Of a stretch of 61,940 bases of DNA, positions 15,140 to 48,021 are shown in pieces. Numbering within the stretch: the stretch's first letter is position 1; every line of letters begins with the position of its first letter. The notes under the pieces are model-generated. The model was not told the origin of the DNA. It saw nothing but the letters and a program-made list of their open reading frames with translations, and searched no databases. The position numbers and the translations under genes were made by a program. Origin of the DNA: Halorussus litoreus (GTDB taxonomy: Archaea > Halobacteriota > Halobacteria > Halobacteriales > Haladaptataceae); NCBI RefSeq assembly GCF_003382685.1, contig NZ_QLVG01000044.1:1-61940 (forward strand). The letters run 5' to 3'.

Positions 15140-15847
15140 TCACTCGTCCCACGGGTCGGCCCGCTCGCGTTCGTGGAACTCGCCGCTGGGTTCCCAGAAC
15201 AGGTAGTACACCGAGACGGCCGTCAGCGCGAGGTAGACCGCGGCCACGCTACCCACGACCACGACGCCGGACACGCCCGGTATCGCCGCGGTGGTCCGCC
15301 ACGGCTCGTCGGGCGCGAACGCGGTGATGCGGACCACCCACGCCGCGAGCAGGACGAGCAGGAAGGGGTAGTACACCCGGCTCAGCCGCCGGGAGAACGC
15401 GGTGAACAGCGTCACCTTCACCGCGGGGTTGCGCAGATCGTTGCCGATTCGCCGGCGCCACTCGCCGTGAGTCACCTCCTCGTCGGGGTCGAGCATCTGG
15501 GCGAACAGGTCCTGTTCCAGCAGTCGGATGCGCTCGCGCCACACGTCGTAGGCTCGGTACCGTCGGGTCTCGACGAACAGGAAGACGACGAGGATTCCCA
15601 TGCCGATGAGCAGCAGGTAGTGGGGGTTGTTCCGGCTGGAGAACGCCCACGTCAGGATGGCGGCCATAATGGTCACCGCCCAGTAGGTAGTCTGGTCGAG
15701 CCGGCTCCGCCACGAGGTTACGCGATCCATCTGCCCGCGGTAGAGATGTCCGAGCAGTCCGACCATGTCGCCGGGGTCGGCCGCGATCTCCTCGCCGACG
15801 TTCTCCTCGGGCGTCTCTCCGGCCCCTTCGCTGCTCGAATCCCCCAT
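15140..15847 (-). CDS. DUF2270 family membrane protein
   Basis: A 235-residue protein. The acidic N-terminus is followed by VGLLGHLYRGQMDRVTSWRS and two close hydrophobic helices (TTYWAVTIMAAILTWAF; YLLLIGMGILVVFLFVE). The charged RRYRAYDVWRERIRLLE block is the DUF2270 signature. Two C-terminal helices follow (YYPFLLVLLAAWVVRI; GVVVVGSVAAVYLALTA). The family's function is unknown. The start is uncertain: an ATG at 15871 (MLNRVSPN) is also possible. I prefer 15847 because the longer form adds poorly conserved residues next to the repeat field. Confidence 0.85.
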   Translation of the reverse strand: MGDSSSEGAGETPEENVGEEIAADPGDMVGLLGHLYRGQMDRVTSWRSRLDQTTYWAVTIMAAILTWAFSSRNNPHYLLLIGMGILVVFLFVETRRYRAYDVWRERIRLLEQDLFAQMLDPDEEVTHGEWRRRIGNDLRNPAVKVTLFTAFSRRLSRVYYPFLLVLLAAWVVRITAFAPDEPWRTTAAIPGVSGVVVVGSVAAVYLALTAVSVYYLFWEPSGEFHERERADPWDE

Positions 15848-15879
15848 ATTCGGAGAAACGCGGTTCAGCATCCTACGAG

Positions 15880-16545
15880 TTGTGGCGGTTGCGAAGGCGG
15901 TCGCGGTTGCGGAGGCGGTCGCGGTTGCGGAGGCGGTCGCGGATGCAGAGGCGGATGAGGTTCTCATTTGCTCAACGATAGTTGCGGCCGCAGTTGCTGT
16001 GGCGGTCCCGGAGGCGGCTGCGGTACTCCGACGCTCAAGCAGAAGTGCTGTCCCTGTTGCTGTGGCAGTAGCGGTCGTAGCGGTTGCGGTCGGTAGGGGT
16101 GCGGTAGCGGTCGATGGGGATGCGGTTGCGGTATTCCTATGCTCAAGCCGAACTGCGGTCGCGGTTGTTGTTGCGATAGTGGCTCTCGGTTGCGCACGTG
16201 TAACTTCAACTGCGACTACCGCCGCCGCGACCGCCTCTCTGCTTGAACAAGTGAGAACAGCAACCGCGACAGCGACCGCTCTTTAACTTGAGCCTCGGAG
16301 TACCGCAACCGCACCCGCCACCGTGACAGCGACAGCTTCAGCAACAGCTACTGCATCCGCAACAGCTACTGCATCCGCAACAGCTACTGCATCCGCAACA
16401 GCAACCGCTACTATTCTTGAACCTATGAGTACCGCACCCGCGACCGCATCCGAAACAGCAGCCGCGACCGCAACCGCCACCGCAACGAAAACCGCGACCG
16501 CAACCGCCACTGCAACGAAAACCGCCACCACAACAGCAGTCTCCG
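15880..16545. repeat. Hexamer field with six TTGAGC-type cores in dyad arrangement
   Basis: About 660 bases are built from GCGGTT/GCGGAG hexamers on the left half and their complements (ACCGCA, ACAGCA, ACCGCG) on the right half. The core TTGAGCNTANGAGWACC occurs six times: reversed at about 15960, 16022 and 16130, forward at about 16241, 16287 and 16416. The whole field is therefore roughly symmetric about 16195. Open frames through it encode only Thr-Ala or Val-Ala repeats and are not believed. It lies between the 3' end of pus10 and the 5' end of DUF2270. Confidence 0.75.
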
Positions 16546-17998: not shown

Positions 17999-18334
17999 CT
18001 ACACCGTCTTGCTGTGGTCGAGCAGTTCGTGTTGGGCCTTCCCGAACGCTTTCGCGACCGGGCTCTCCTCGTTCAAGCGGTAGCGTTTCGCCCCCGCGAC
18101 CTCCTCGGCCTCCTCTATGACGCCCATCTCCTCGAAGACGTCGACGTTCCGGTGGAACGTACTTACGTCGATTCCCGCGAGATCGGCCGCCTTCGCGGCG
18201 GTGAGTTCGGTGTAATGCTTCCGGAGGAATACGTCGAGGATGCGGACGCGGCTCGATGTCTCGAGCAGGCGGACGAAAGTCGACGCGTCGGCGTAACTGC
18301 CATTCGCGTCGAGACGTTCGGTATGTTCGCTCAT
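17999..18334 (-). CDS. Winged-helix (ArsR-like) transcriptional regulator
   Basis: A 111-residue DNA-binding protein. The winged-helix domain runs from about residue 18: TFVRLLETSSRVRILDVFLR, then LTAAKAADLAGIDVSTFHRN as the helix-turn-helix, then VFEEMGVIEEAEEV with wing residues AGAKRYRLN. No metal-binding cysteines are seen, so it is not a metal-sensing ArsR. It is divergent from the gene at 18493. The three palindromic operators at 18381-18436 lie between the two promoters, so it very probably binds them and represses both. Its own TATA-like box (TTTATGA, reverse strand) is at about 18371-18377. Confidence 0.85.
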   Translation of the reverse strand: MSEHTERLDANGSYADASTFVRLLETSSRVRILDVFLRKHYTELTAAKAADLAGIDVSTFHRNVDVFEEMGVIEEAEEVAGAKRYRLNEESPVAKAFGKAQHELLDHSKTV

Positions 18335-18380
18335 CGGTGGACTCCGTGTTCCGTAATTAGTCGTCTTCCGTCATAAACTC

Positions 18381-18436
18381 TTGCACTGATGCAACGAACT
18401 CTTGTACTGGTGCAATGATCGGTTGCACCAGTGCAA
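18381..18436. promoter_or_regulatory. Three palindromic operators at exact 21-bp spacing
   Basis: Sites 18381-18394, 18402-18415 and 18423-18436 read TTGCACTGATGCAA, TTGTACTGGTGCAA and TTGCACCAGTGCAA. Each is a TTGCA-N4-TGCAA palindrome; the middle one has one mismatch. Centre-to-centre distance is 21 bases both times, two turns of the helix, so bound dimers would sit on one face. They lie between the TATA boxes of the divergent regulator (18334) and the gene at 18493. Confidence 0.85.
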
Positions 18437-18492
18437 CGACGTCGCGTTTGGCCGCGAAGGTTTATCAATCAGAACGGGACGAAAGTGACCTG

Positions 18493-18786
18493 ATGGACGG
18501 GCGAAATCCAAGGACGCGGACTCATCTGACGATTGACCTGCTCGATATGCTCTTGCAGTCCGATGCCGCGTGCCCTAACTCCGTCACCGTCTCCGAGGTC
18601 CAAGCGTGGTTCTCGACGCGTGAGCGCGAACTCGCCGCCGAAATCGTCATGGAACTCGCAGGAGCCTCCGGTGCGCCGGTCGAGTTCGTCACCGCAGAGC
18701 GTGTGAGCATCTGGCTCACCGACCGGGCCGCCGCGCAGGCGTACGTCGCGGACCTGCGCGAGAACCCACCGTGGTTCGATCCGTGA
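18493..18786 (+). CDS. Hypothetical protein divergent from a winged-helix regulator
   Basis: A 97-residue soluble protein starting MDGRNPRTRTHLTIDLLDML. Helical segments are TVSEVQAWFSTRERELAAEI and EFVTAERVSIWLTDRAAAQA, ending RENPPWFDP. The pattern could be a winged-helix-like fold, but I recognise no family. The ATG at 18493 lies about 30 bases after a GTTTATCAA TATA box (18458-18466). Longer in-frame starts would run into the operator array. Expression is probably controlled by the three operators upstream and the regulator on the other strand. Confidence 0.7.
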   Translation: MDGRNPRTRTHLTIDLLDMLLQSDAACPNSVTVSEVQAWFSTRERELAAEIVMELAGASGAPVEFVTAERVSIWLTDRAAAQAYVADLRENPPWFDP

Positions 18787-45303: not shown

Positions 45304-48021
45304 TTATGACGCCACCGGCTCGACGGCGTACACGCTCAGCCCGCCAGCGTAGTACACCCGCCCGTCCACGACGACCGGCGAGGTCCTGCCGAAGCCGTCG
45401 CGGTCGGCCTCGTGGGACCACAGCGTCGACCCGTCCGCGGCGTCGAGCGCGTACAGCGTTCCGGCGTCGCTGACGACGTACGCCGTCCCGTCGACCACGA
45501 CCGGGGAGCCGAGCTGGTCGTCGGCGGTGGCGTTCCAGACGCGCTCGCCGGTCGCGCGGTCGAGCGCGTACAGCGTCGCGGTGTCGGTGCTCACGATCAC
45601 GAGGTCGTCGGTGATCGCCATCGACGAGGGGTGTTCGATGTCGTTGGCCGGCCGGTCGTTCGGCAGTGGCTGGGAGGTCCACCGCTGCTCGCCGCCGTCG
45701 ACGGCCACCGCGTGGACGACGCCCGTCTCGCTTCGGACGTACGCAGTGTCGCCGCGGACCGAGGGCACGCCGAGCGTCTTCTCGCCGCGCGCGAGCCCGT
45801 TGCTTGTCGGCGTCCGGTACGACCAGTACTGGGCCTTCTCGGCCCCCGGCTCGAACTTCATCAGCATCCGGTCCTCGCCCGCCGAGACGTACAGCTTCTC
45901 GTCGTGGACCGCGACGCCGCCGACGTGGCCGGCCTCGCGCGTCCAGAGCACGCTCTGAGTCCGGAGGTCGAGCGCGACCAGCGAGTCGTCGTGTTGGCTG
46001 TCCTCGCGCTCGGCGAACGGGTCGTCGACGGGGACGTAGGCGACGCCGTCGAGTACCGCGAACGCCTCCTTGACGGTGGCCGTGGACTGGCCCGGTGCCG
46101 TGAGTTGTTTGCTCCAGCGTCGCTCGCCGGTGTCGGCGTCGAGGGCGTGGAAGGTCCCCTCGGAGTCGGCGACGTACAGCACCCGTTCGCCCGACCGATC
46201 CTGACCCGCGACGGGCGCGACCTCGATGGGAGCGTCGAGGCTCGCGTGCCACGTGATGTTGCCCGGGTCGGGGGCGTGTGCGCGCACCACCTCGCCGCTC
46301 GCGGTGTAGAGCGCGCCGCCGGCCATCACCGGCGAACTCCCGTAGCTCTGGGCGAACCGGCTCCAGTCGCGCTCGACCTCGCCCCGTAAGACCGTCCCGT
46401 CGGGCCGATAGCCCGACCGCGACTGCTCGCCTTGGAGTCCGGGCCACGTGCTCGCGGGGTCGGTTCCGCCGGTTTCGGCCCGGACGGTTATCTCCACGCT
46501 GTCGGCCACGTACCGGTTCCCGTCGTCTGCGGACTTGCGCGCGGTAGCGGTGTAGTTGCCCGGCTCGGTGAACTCGTAGGCGGCGGTCCCGTCGAACCCG
46601 GCGTCGACGGCGTTGCCGTCGATCTCGACGGTGGCGTTCTCGACGCCGAACCCGTCGGACTCGCGCGTGACCCGGAAGGTGACTGCGTCGCCCTCCGTCA
46701 CCGTGCGCTCGTCGGCAGTGAGGTTCATCGCCACCCGGTCGCGGGTGACCTCGACGCTCCGACGCTGCCCGTCGGCCCAGTCGCGGTACGTGACCAGTTC
46801 CTCGATAGTCACCGTGTAGTTCGTCCCGGCTTCGGCCTGCCGGTACGTCGCGGCGTACTCGAACCCGTCGCTGCCGTCGCCGGTCTCCAACTGGGATTCG
46901 TCGAACGTCTGGAGTACTTCCCCATCGGCCGAGACCGCGACCTCGACGCCTGCGAGCGCCTCGTCCGTGACTATCGAGACCCCCACGTCGGTTCCGGGGT
47001 CCGTGGCGGTGAACGACTCGATGGGCGAGCCGCCGACGGCGATCTCGAACGGGACCGTGTCGGTCTTCCGCGCGCCGTCGTCGTCGGTCACGCGATAGGT
47101 CACCTCGTGGCTTCCGCGGCCCTGAACCGTGACCTCGGGCCGGTCGGGATCGAGCGTCTCGAACTCGCCGCCGTCGACGCTGACCGCGACCGTCTCGACC
47201 GCGCCGTCGGCGTCGCTGGCCGCGAGGTCGACTGTCACCGGGCCGGCGTACGAGCCGTTCTCGAACTGTCGGGCGTCGAGCGTGACCTCGACCGTCGGCG
47301 GCTGGTTGGGGTCCGCGGTCGTCTCGTCTTGCGTCGTCTCATCGCTGGTAGTGGTGTCGCCGCCGGGAGTGGTGCTACCGGCCGTGGTGTCGTCCTCGGT
47401 GGTGGGCTCACCGCTCTCGTCGTCGCTCCCGCCGGTGACCGCCAGCGTCGCGTCCGGCGACCCCGTCACGGCGTACGCGTCGCCCGCCGGACTCCCGAGC
47501 GACTGGACCCGGAGCGCGAGGTCGGTGGTGCCGTCCCGTTCGCCCCGAACCGTCACCGTCGCGATCACGGTGTCGCGTCCGCCTTCGAGGTCGGCGGCCG
47601 CAGTCCGTATCTCCACGCGGTCCGCGCCGTCGCCGACCGGCGAGACGTCTGTCACGTCGGGGTCGCCCGACACCGCGGCGCTCACCACGTCGGCGACCGA
47701 GCCGTTCGCGACCGACAGCGAGAGCGCGGACGAGCCGACGCCTTTCCCGGGGTCGGCGACCACGATCTCGTACGTCCGCTTGCTTCCGGCTCGAATCGAT
47801 CCACTCGTCGCCCCGTCTGCCGGCACGACGCTGACCGCCGTGCGGTGGTCGCCACCCGCGTCGTCGGAACTGCCCGTGAGGTCCCCCGCGATACCGTCGA
47901 ACGGGGTGCCGTCGAGCGGCGTTCCATCGAGTAGCCCGCCGTCGAGCACGCCCGGCGTGGCGACCGCCATACCGCCCACCGCTAGCAGGACAACGACCGC
48001 GAGGGCCGCTCGTCCGTCCAT
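45304..48021 (-). CDS. Cell-surface PQQ-type beta-propeller protein with a cohesin-like domain
   Basis: A 905-residue exported protein. A signal/anchor helix (ALAVVVLLAVGGMAVA) starts it. A DGTPLDGTPFDG repeat follows. Residues ~63-197 look like a cohesin module (VSVVPADGATSGSIRAGSKR; VADPGKGVGSSALSLSV; TVIATVTVRGERDGTTDLAL). A Thr-rich linker (TTAGSTTPGGDTTTSDETTQ) comes next. Two Ig/PKD-type beta domains fill about 245-540. The C-terminal ~350 residues are a PQQ-like propeller with repeated units (LYVADSEGTFHALDADTGER; YALDAADGSTLWSHEADRDG). The dockerin-like gene lies immediately upstream in the same operon. Binding of that partner is inferred. Confidence 0.85.
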   Translation of the reverse strand: MDGRAALAVVVLLAVGGMAVATPGVLDGGLLDGTPLDGTPFDGIAGDLTGSSDDAGGDHRTAVSVVPADGATSGSIRAGSKRTYEIVVADPGKGVGSSALSLSVANGSVADVVSAAVSGDPDVTDVSPVGDGADRVEIRTAAADLEGGRDTVIATVTVRGERDGTTDLALRVQSLGSPAGDAYAVTGSPDATLAVTGGSDDESGEPTTEDDTTAGSTTPGGDTTTSDETTQDETTADPNQPPTVEVTLDARQFENGSYAGPVTVDLAASDADGAVETVAVSVDGGEFETLDPDRPEVTVQGRGSHEVTYRVTDDDGARKTDTVPFEIAVGGSPIESFTATDPGTDVGVSIVTDEALAGVEVAVSADGEVLQTFDESQLETGDGSDGFEYAATYRQAEAGTNYTVTIEELVTYRDWADGQRRSVEVTRDRVAMNLTADERTVTEGDAVTFRVTRESDGFGVENATVEIDGNAVDAGFDGTAAYEFTEPGNYTATARKSADDGNRYVADSVEITVRAETGGTDPASTWPGLQGEQSRSGYRPDGTVLRGEVERDWSRFAQSYGSSPVMAGGALYTASGEVVRAHAPDPGNITWHASLDAPIEVAPVAGQDRSGERVLYVADSEGTFHALDADTGERRWSKQLTAPGQSTATVKEAFAVLDGVAYVPVDDPFAEREDSQHDDSLVALDLRTQSVLWTREAGHVGGVAVHDEKLYVSAGEDRMLMKFEPGAEKAQYWSYRTPTSNGLARGEKTLGVPSVRGDTAYVRSETGVVHAVAVDGGEQRWTSQPLPNDRPANDIEHPSSMAITDDLVIVSTDTATLYALDRATGERVWNATADDQLGSPVVVDGTAYVVSDAGTLYALDAADGSTLWSHEADRDGFGRTSPVVVDGRVYYAGGLSVYAVEPVAS

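Follow-up and report, generated by a model that had tools for sequence, protein, structure and literature searches.

We asked what purpose might be served by three evenly spaced palindromes that lie between two divergently transcribed genes of Halorussus litoreus, and which of the two encoded proteins, if either, would be expected to read them. Throughout, the window refers to the whole stretch of DNA that was analysed, 61,940 nucleotides of contig NZ_QLVG01000044.1. Within it, the gap at 18335-18492 separates a gene on the minus strand, called the regulator here, from a gene on the plus strand, called the partner. The features of the locus are as follows:

17999-18334, minus strand: regulator gene, encoding a 111-aa ArsR-like winged helix-turn-helix protein
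18377-18372, minus strand: TATA-like box of the regulator, TTTATG, by direct reading
18381-18394: site 1, TTGCACTGATGCAA, an exact TTGCA-N4-TGCAA with palindromic arms, 3 nt from the TATA-like box of the regulator
18402-18415: site 2, TTGTACTGGTGCAA, with one mismatch (TTGTA) to TTGCA-N4-TGCAA
18423-18436: site 3, TTGCACCAGTGCAA, with exact arms and 6-bp inverted arms
18461-18468, plus strand: TATA-like box of the partner, TTTATCAA, by direct reading, 32 nt before the partner ATG
18493-18786, plus strand: partner gene, encoding a 97-aa protein that is winged-helix-like by predicted structure

A rare motif at an exact pitch

The three 14-bp palindromes form an array of 56 bp and follow one another at a pitch of exactly 21 bp, which corresponds to two helical turns. 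A preliminary description of this DNA had reported three TTGCA-N4-TGCAA sites starting at 18381, 18402 and 18423, each 21 bp from the next. Direct scanning returned the same three starts and the same pitch, and the motif is indeed exact at 18381 and 18423; the site at 18402 departs from it at one position. The G+C content of the gap is 51%, compared with 67% for the window, and at codon third positions it reaches 82% in the regulator gene and 78% in the partner gene.

Matches to this motif are scarce outside the array. When up to one mismatch is allowed, the window contains three matches where 0.19 would be expected, and all three are in the gap. This number was attained in 0 of 100 shuffles, and when the gap was shuffled, at least one such site appeared in 10 of 3000 trials. 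The search of the genome that the preliminary description had proposed was also run: the exact motif has two copies in the 3.84-Mb genome, sites 1 and 3 of the array, with no exact copy elsewhere. With up to one mismatch there are nine matches genome-wide, three of which belong to the array. The six others all stand alone, with no further copy within about 150 bp, and four of them fall within open frames of 437-807 aa. This rarity of the site elsewhere in the genome suggests that the regulator acts locally.

We also scanned the window for evenly pitched triples of similar palindromes of any kind (pitch 14-59), which recovered the array and one other place, near 46581-46590. The even-pitch triple found there (46581-46632; 18 and 27 bp) is possibly a simple repeat.

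Spacing of the palindromes in related genomes

The preliminary description had suggested that loss of the 21-bp spacing in orthologous gaps that keep both genes would speak against an operator of this layout. When this comparison was made, the spacing was found to be kept as the dominant lag. In 13 close gaps, pairs of similar palindromes were scored at each lag from 12 to 44, and lag 21 came out on top with a score of 170, against 132.7 ± 4.4 in shuffled gaps (maximum 147 in 400 shuffles; z = 8.5). The next lag was 42 (score 153), to which the three sites of the window contribute, and no other lag came near lag 21. The signal survives removal of the window (152 against 122.6 ± 4.2; z = 7.0) and restriction to 10 gaps with less redundancy among them (130 against 102.3 ± 4.1; z = 6.8). 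A fourteenth genome, from outside the 13-gap set (G335), likewise has its best lag at 21 bp, between TTCTATCCATGCAA and TTCCATCCATGCAA; the partner profile found no match there, and a 92-aa frame at that place may be a diverged partner. A scan of contigs turned up three named relatives, Halobiforma nitratireducens, Natronorubrum halalkaliphilum and Natrarchaeobius chitinivorans, whose gaps duplicate those of genomes already sampled.

The number of sites is less constant than their phasing. Three sites are seen only in the window, and what is conserved is a pair of phased sites, so that the originally proposed three-site layout holds for its 21-bp phasing, which recurs in relatives, and gives way as to site number. 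Two genomes (G210 and G035) have a pitch of 20 bp instead of 21. One (G011) has a single clear site, the exact TTGCATCAATGCAA, and in four others (G182, G382, G231 and G093) the second site, read by eye, is degenerate or a half-site, at the expected place. That G011 is single-site, and that several second sites (G231, G182 and G093) appear by eye to be degenerate or halved, count against reading the array as a cooperative operator. In G092, G250 and halophilic archaeon DL31, a single palindrome of the form ATGCA-N4-TGCAT overlaps the TATA box.

The letters of the arms vary by lineage (TTGCA, TCCCA, TTTCA, CTGCA and TTCCA), and the core CA-N4-TG is common to sites 1 and 3 and most relatives. 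In the relatives, 8-10 bp separate the first site from the start of the regulator's TATA-like box, some of these distances having been taken by eye. Arms that change while the pitch and the distance to the TATA-like box stay are as expected if the operator and its regulator change together. We also considered a 21-bp rule for more distant pairs of the superfamily, a larger set of paralogous gene pairs, and rejected it: these showed no clear 21-bp signal, their best lags being 22 and 19, near background.

The regulator and a candidate autoregulatory operator

The minus-strand neighbour had been described as an ArsR-like winged-helix gene, and structural comparison bears this out. The AF2 model of the regulator (pLDDT 86.8) consists of one winged helix and a C-terminal helix, ArsR-type folds are its best structural matches in Foldseek (E about 1e-4), and its profile matches in the PDB are SmtB and other ArsR-type chains. 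In a Pfam scan the regulator scores 25.7 bits for HTH_20, just below the cut-off of 27, and 24.6 bits for FUR, above the cut-off of 23.1, while HTH_5 is not listed and no Lrp match appears. The protein therefore has the ArsR-type winged-helix fold and falls short of the curated sequence-family score for ArsR/SmtB. It shares its fold with the ArsR/SmtB repressors but differs from them in that no metal gene adjoins it and none of its 111 residues is a cysteine; it consequently has no cysteine metal site, and nothing in it answers to a cysteine-based metal- or thiol-sensing site. The close relatives of the regulator are longer, with about 141-150 aa as counted from their profile match, and have a C-terminal tail that the regulator of the window lacks. 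Its close clade is small, comprising 14 of 392 genomes at E 1e-15, and a paralogue is present in the same genome (C37). In G035, the regulator is a protein of 446 aa with two tandem winged helices and a long C-terminal part (L057:448-1785).

Taking the position of the sites together with their conservation, we put the probability at about two in three that the array serves the adjacent 111-aa winged-helix regulator as a local autoregulatory operator with cooperative binding. In this model, we infer binding by the regulator, its dimerisation, cooperativity, the sign of control, the effect on the partner and the signal. Each regulator dimer would read one 14-bp palindrome, and the 21-bp pitch would set the dimers on one face of the DNA, an alignment that the preliminary description had predicted and that the exact pitch supports. 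Neighbouring dimers would then touch, resulting in cooperative binding and a steep response. Judging from its position, site 1 should overlap the BRE of the regulator promoter; once filled, it would most likely block TFB/TBP and so repress the regulator gene, giving negative autoregulation with a sharp threshold, and the upstream sites would stabilise site 1. Self-repression is our first choice over self-activation because site 1 touches the BRE/TATA region and because a palindrome lies over the TATA box in some relatives.

The partner may plausibly be controlled as well, though less directly, since its TATA-like box lies 24 bp past site 3. The upstream sites, at least 24 bp before that box, could tune the partner promoter up or down. 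Cooperative autoregulation of both promoters had originally been predicted. Because the array is asymmetric, adjoining the regulator promoter and standing off from that of the partner, equal control of the two is not implied, and autoregulation of the regulator's own gene is the part of that prediction we regard as likeliest.

There is precedent in archaea for phased autoregulation by multiple dimers (PMC2995911, PMC4046817). Ss-LrpB of Sulfolobus solfataricus binds as three dimers, cooperatively, to juxtaposed palindromes in its own control region; its sites are 15 bp long with the consensus TTGCAAAATTTGCAA, its targets are mainly itself and neighbouring genes, and archaeal Lrp sites are generally two or three helical turns apart (PMC4046817, PMC2995911). 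The present array resembles this arrangement in the placing of its palindromes at whole helical turns within the control region of the regulator gene itself (21 bp, three sites) and in its TTGCA...TGCAA arms, a likeness that is likely convergent. Whereas Ss-LrpB belongs to Lrp/AsnC, carries a RAM effector domain and binds 15-bp sites, the regulator studied here has one ArsR-like winged helix and putative sites of 14 bp, and its divergent partner, which is conserved, is predicted to be winged-helix-like. Members of the Lrp/AsnC family combine an N-terminal HTH with a C-terminal RAM domain; because the 111-aa regulator is without the Lrp C-terminal domain, it is not a member.

In site geometry, the nearest haloarchaeal parallel is CsmR (HVO_1209) of Haloferax volcanii, which the passages on CsmR in PMC13286277 describe as a winged-helix protein of about 13 kDa with a TATCA-N4-TGATA site beside the TATA box. 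These passages give about 65 bound genes, including archaellum genes, and class CsmR as Lrp/AsnC-like (PMC13286277). The likeness in site geometry consists of the 5-4-5 arrangement and the CA-N4-TG core shared with most sites here: sites 1 and 3 and most relatives have the form NNNCA-N4-TGNNN beside a TATA box. CsmR differs in its broad regulon, and the passages on it do not report tandem phased sites (PMC13286277). A further parallel is OxsR, also from Haloferax volcanii, a single winged-helix haloarchaeal regulator whose effect is set by the position of the site relative to BRE/TATA: motifs 5' of BRE/TATA activate and 3' motifs repress (PMC9426492). Unlike the regulator studied here, OxsR has a CG-rich motif, an essential cysteine (C24) and an oxidative-stress regulon (PMC9426492).

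These comparisons bear on the sign of control, as the position of site 1 just upstream of BRE/TATA might also fit an activator. The operator could be the same and the regulator could be an activator or a two-way switch, a reading that we consider unlikely but worth serious attention. As a switch, it would work as reported for Ss-LrpB: at low concentration a dimer at site 1 would recruit TFB/TBP, giving positive autoregulation, and occupation of every site would bring repression. Directly 5' of BRE/TATA is where archaeal Lrp-type activators such as Ptr2, LysM and Ss-LrpB bind, their distance from the BRE being constrained (PMC2995911), and it is also where OxsR motifs activate (PMC9426492). Recruitment is hinted at by G210, in which the regulator is fused, in one 414-aa open frame (L051:577-1818), to a complete TFB with a zinc ribbon and two TFIIB repeats, and in which phased sites (20 bp) lie in the same place, beside the fusion gene's own TATA-like box. 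A fusion in one genome may, however, be an exception, and activation is hard to reconcile with those relatives whose sole palindrome overlaps the TATA box.

With self-repression as the preferred reading, the array is a computationally well-supported candidate operator for a haloarchaeal regulator family without described function. The array and its counterparts in relatives form a natural series (one, two or three sites; a pitch of 20 or 21 bp; placement upstream of the TATA box or over it) in which the effects of site position and helical phase on the sign of gene control in archaea could be tested. Paired changes of regulator and operator across lineages would likewise shed light on site choice by winged helices.

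The divergent partner and other explanations

The partner has no Pfam family match. Its model (pLDDT 81.5) has the order helix-helix-helix-strand-strand-helix, and Foldseek returned weak matches, with a best E of 0.011, to the winged helices SqrR, SmtB and Cdt1; the partner is thus itself predicted to be winged-helix-like. Profile comparison detected no homology between regulator and partner (probability 0.7%). The divergent pair is widespread in haloarchaea. Across 392 genomes of the order, profile searches run separately for the two proteins gave 94 regulator-like and 65 partner-like places, and 58 of the latter are head-to-head with one of the former. We found no paper describing this gene pair in the open-access literature. 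A two-gene toxin-antitoxin module was considered and rejected: the genes are divergent, Pfam gives no credible toxin domain, and the partner is winged-helix-like.

No neighbourhood with Pus10 or deoC, within about 1.5 kb, is shared by the relatives that were checked. Replicons that carry relatives of the regulator include pNMAG01 of Natrialba magadii and the DL31 plasmid phalar01; the partner had no match in plasmid records. The regulator had no match in phage records, so a viral origin is not supported. Because the pair lies away from Pus10 and deoC in the relatives checked, and because relatives of the regulator are found on such replicons, we infer that the pair acts as an accessory unit and travels together with its operator. 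Beside Pus10, the window contains a long low-complexity stretch of short alternating repeats (15765-16531), which yield alanine/valine-rich or alanine/threonine-rich frames.

Most close relatives carry a further gene behind the regulator, at an offset of about -35 to +6 nt (L177-L190), which is apparently translationally coupled to it. These third genes include a group of 100-124 aa from nine genomes, with a motif common by eye, and a group of 206-246 aa from three genomes; no Pfam family was found in those scanned, and the window has no such gene behind its regulator. A broader proposal, which we regard as quite doubtful, is that a mobile haloarchaeal control cassette is formed by the regulator, the divergent co-regulator, often a third small coupled gene and a phased operator of its own. 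In this cassette, the regulator would deliver TFB to the neighbouring BRE, a mechanism suggested by its natural fusion to TFB in G210, with the partner serving as its antagonist or heterodimer mate.

The sites could instead be read by another protein, namely the partner, a regulator-partner heterodimer or a paralogue. Although the partner is predicted to be winged-helix-like and is nearly always linked to the regulator, and although the genome does carry a paralogue, we judge this improbable: conservation is much lower in the partner than in the regulator (mean column identity 36% versus 52%), its structural match is weak, and G335 keeps a 21-bp array by its regulator even though the partner profile found no match there.

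Finally, it is highly improbable that the array is a 21-bp unit recently duplicated in tandem, with no regulatory role, since, even though non-core positions of the three units are also more alike than chance (16/33 identical), 28/30 core positions are identical (Fisher p = 1e-4), orthologous gaps of other lineages have the equal pitch with different letters, and the array lies beside the TATA-like box of the regulator in nearly all lineages. The excess of identity in the core indicates that the sites have been kept beyond a bare duplication of 21 bp; the array may have grown by duplication, and the palindromes are the part that was retained.
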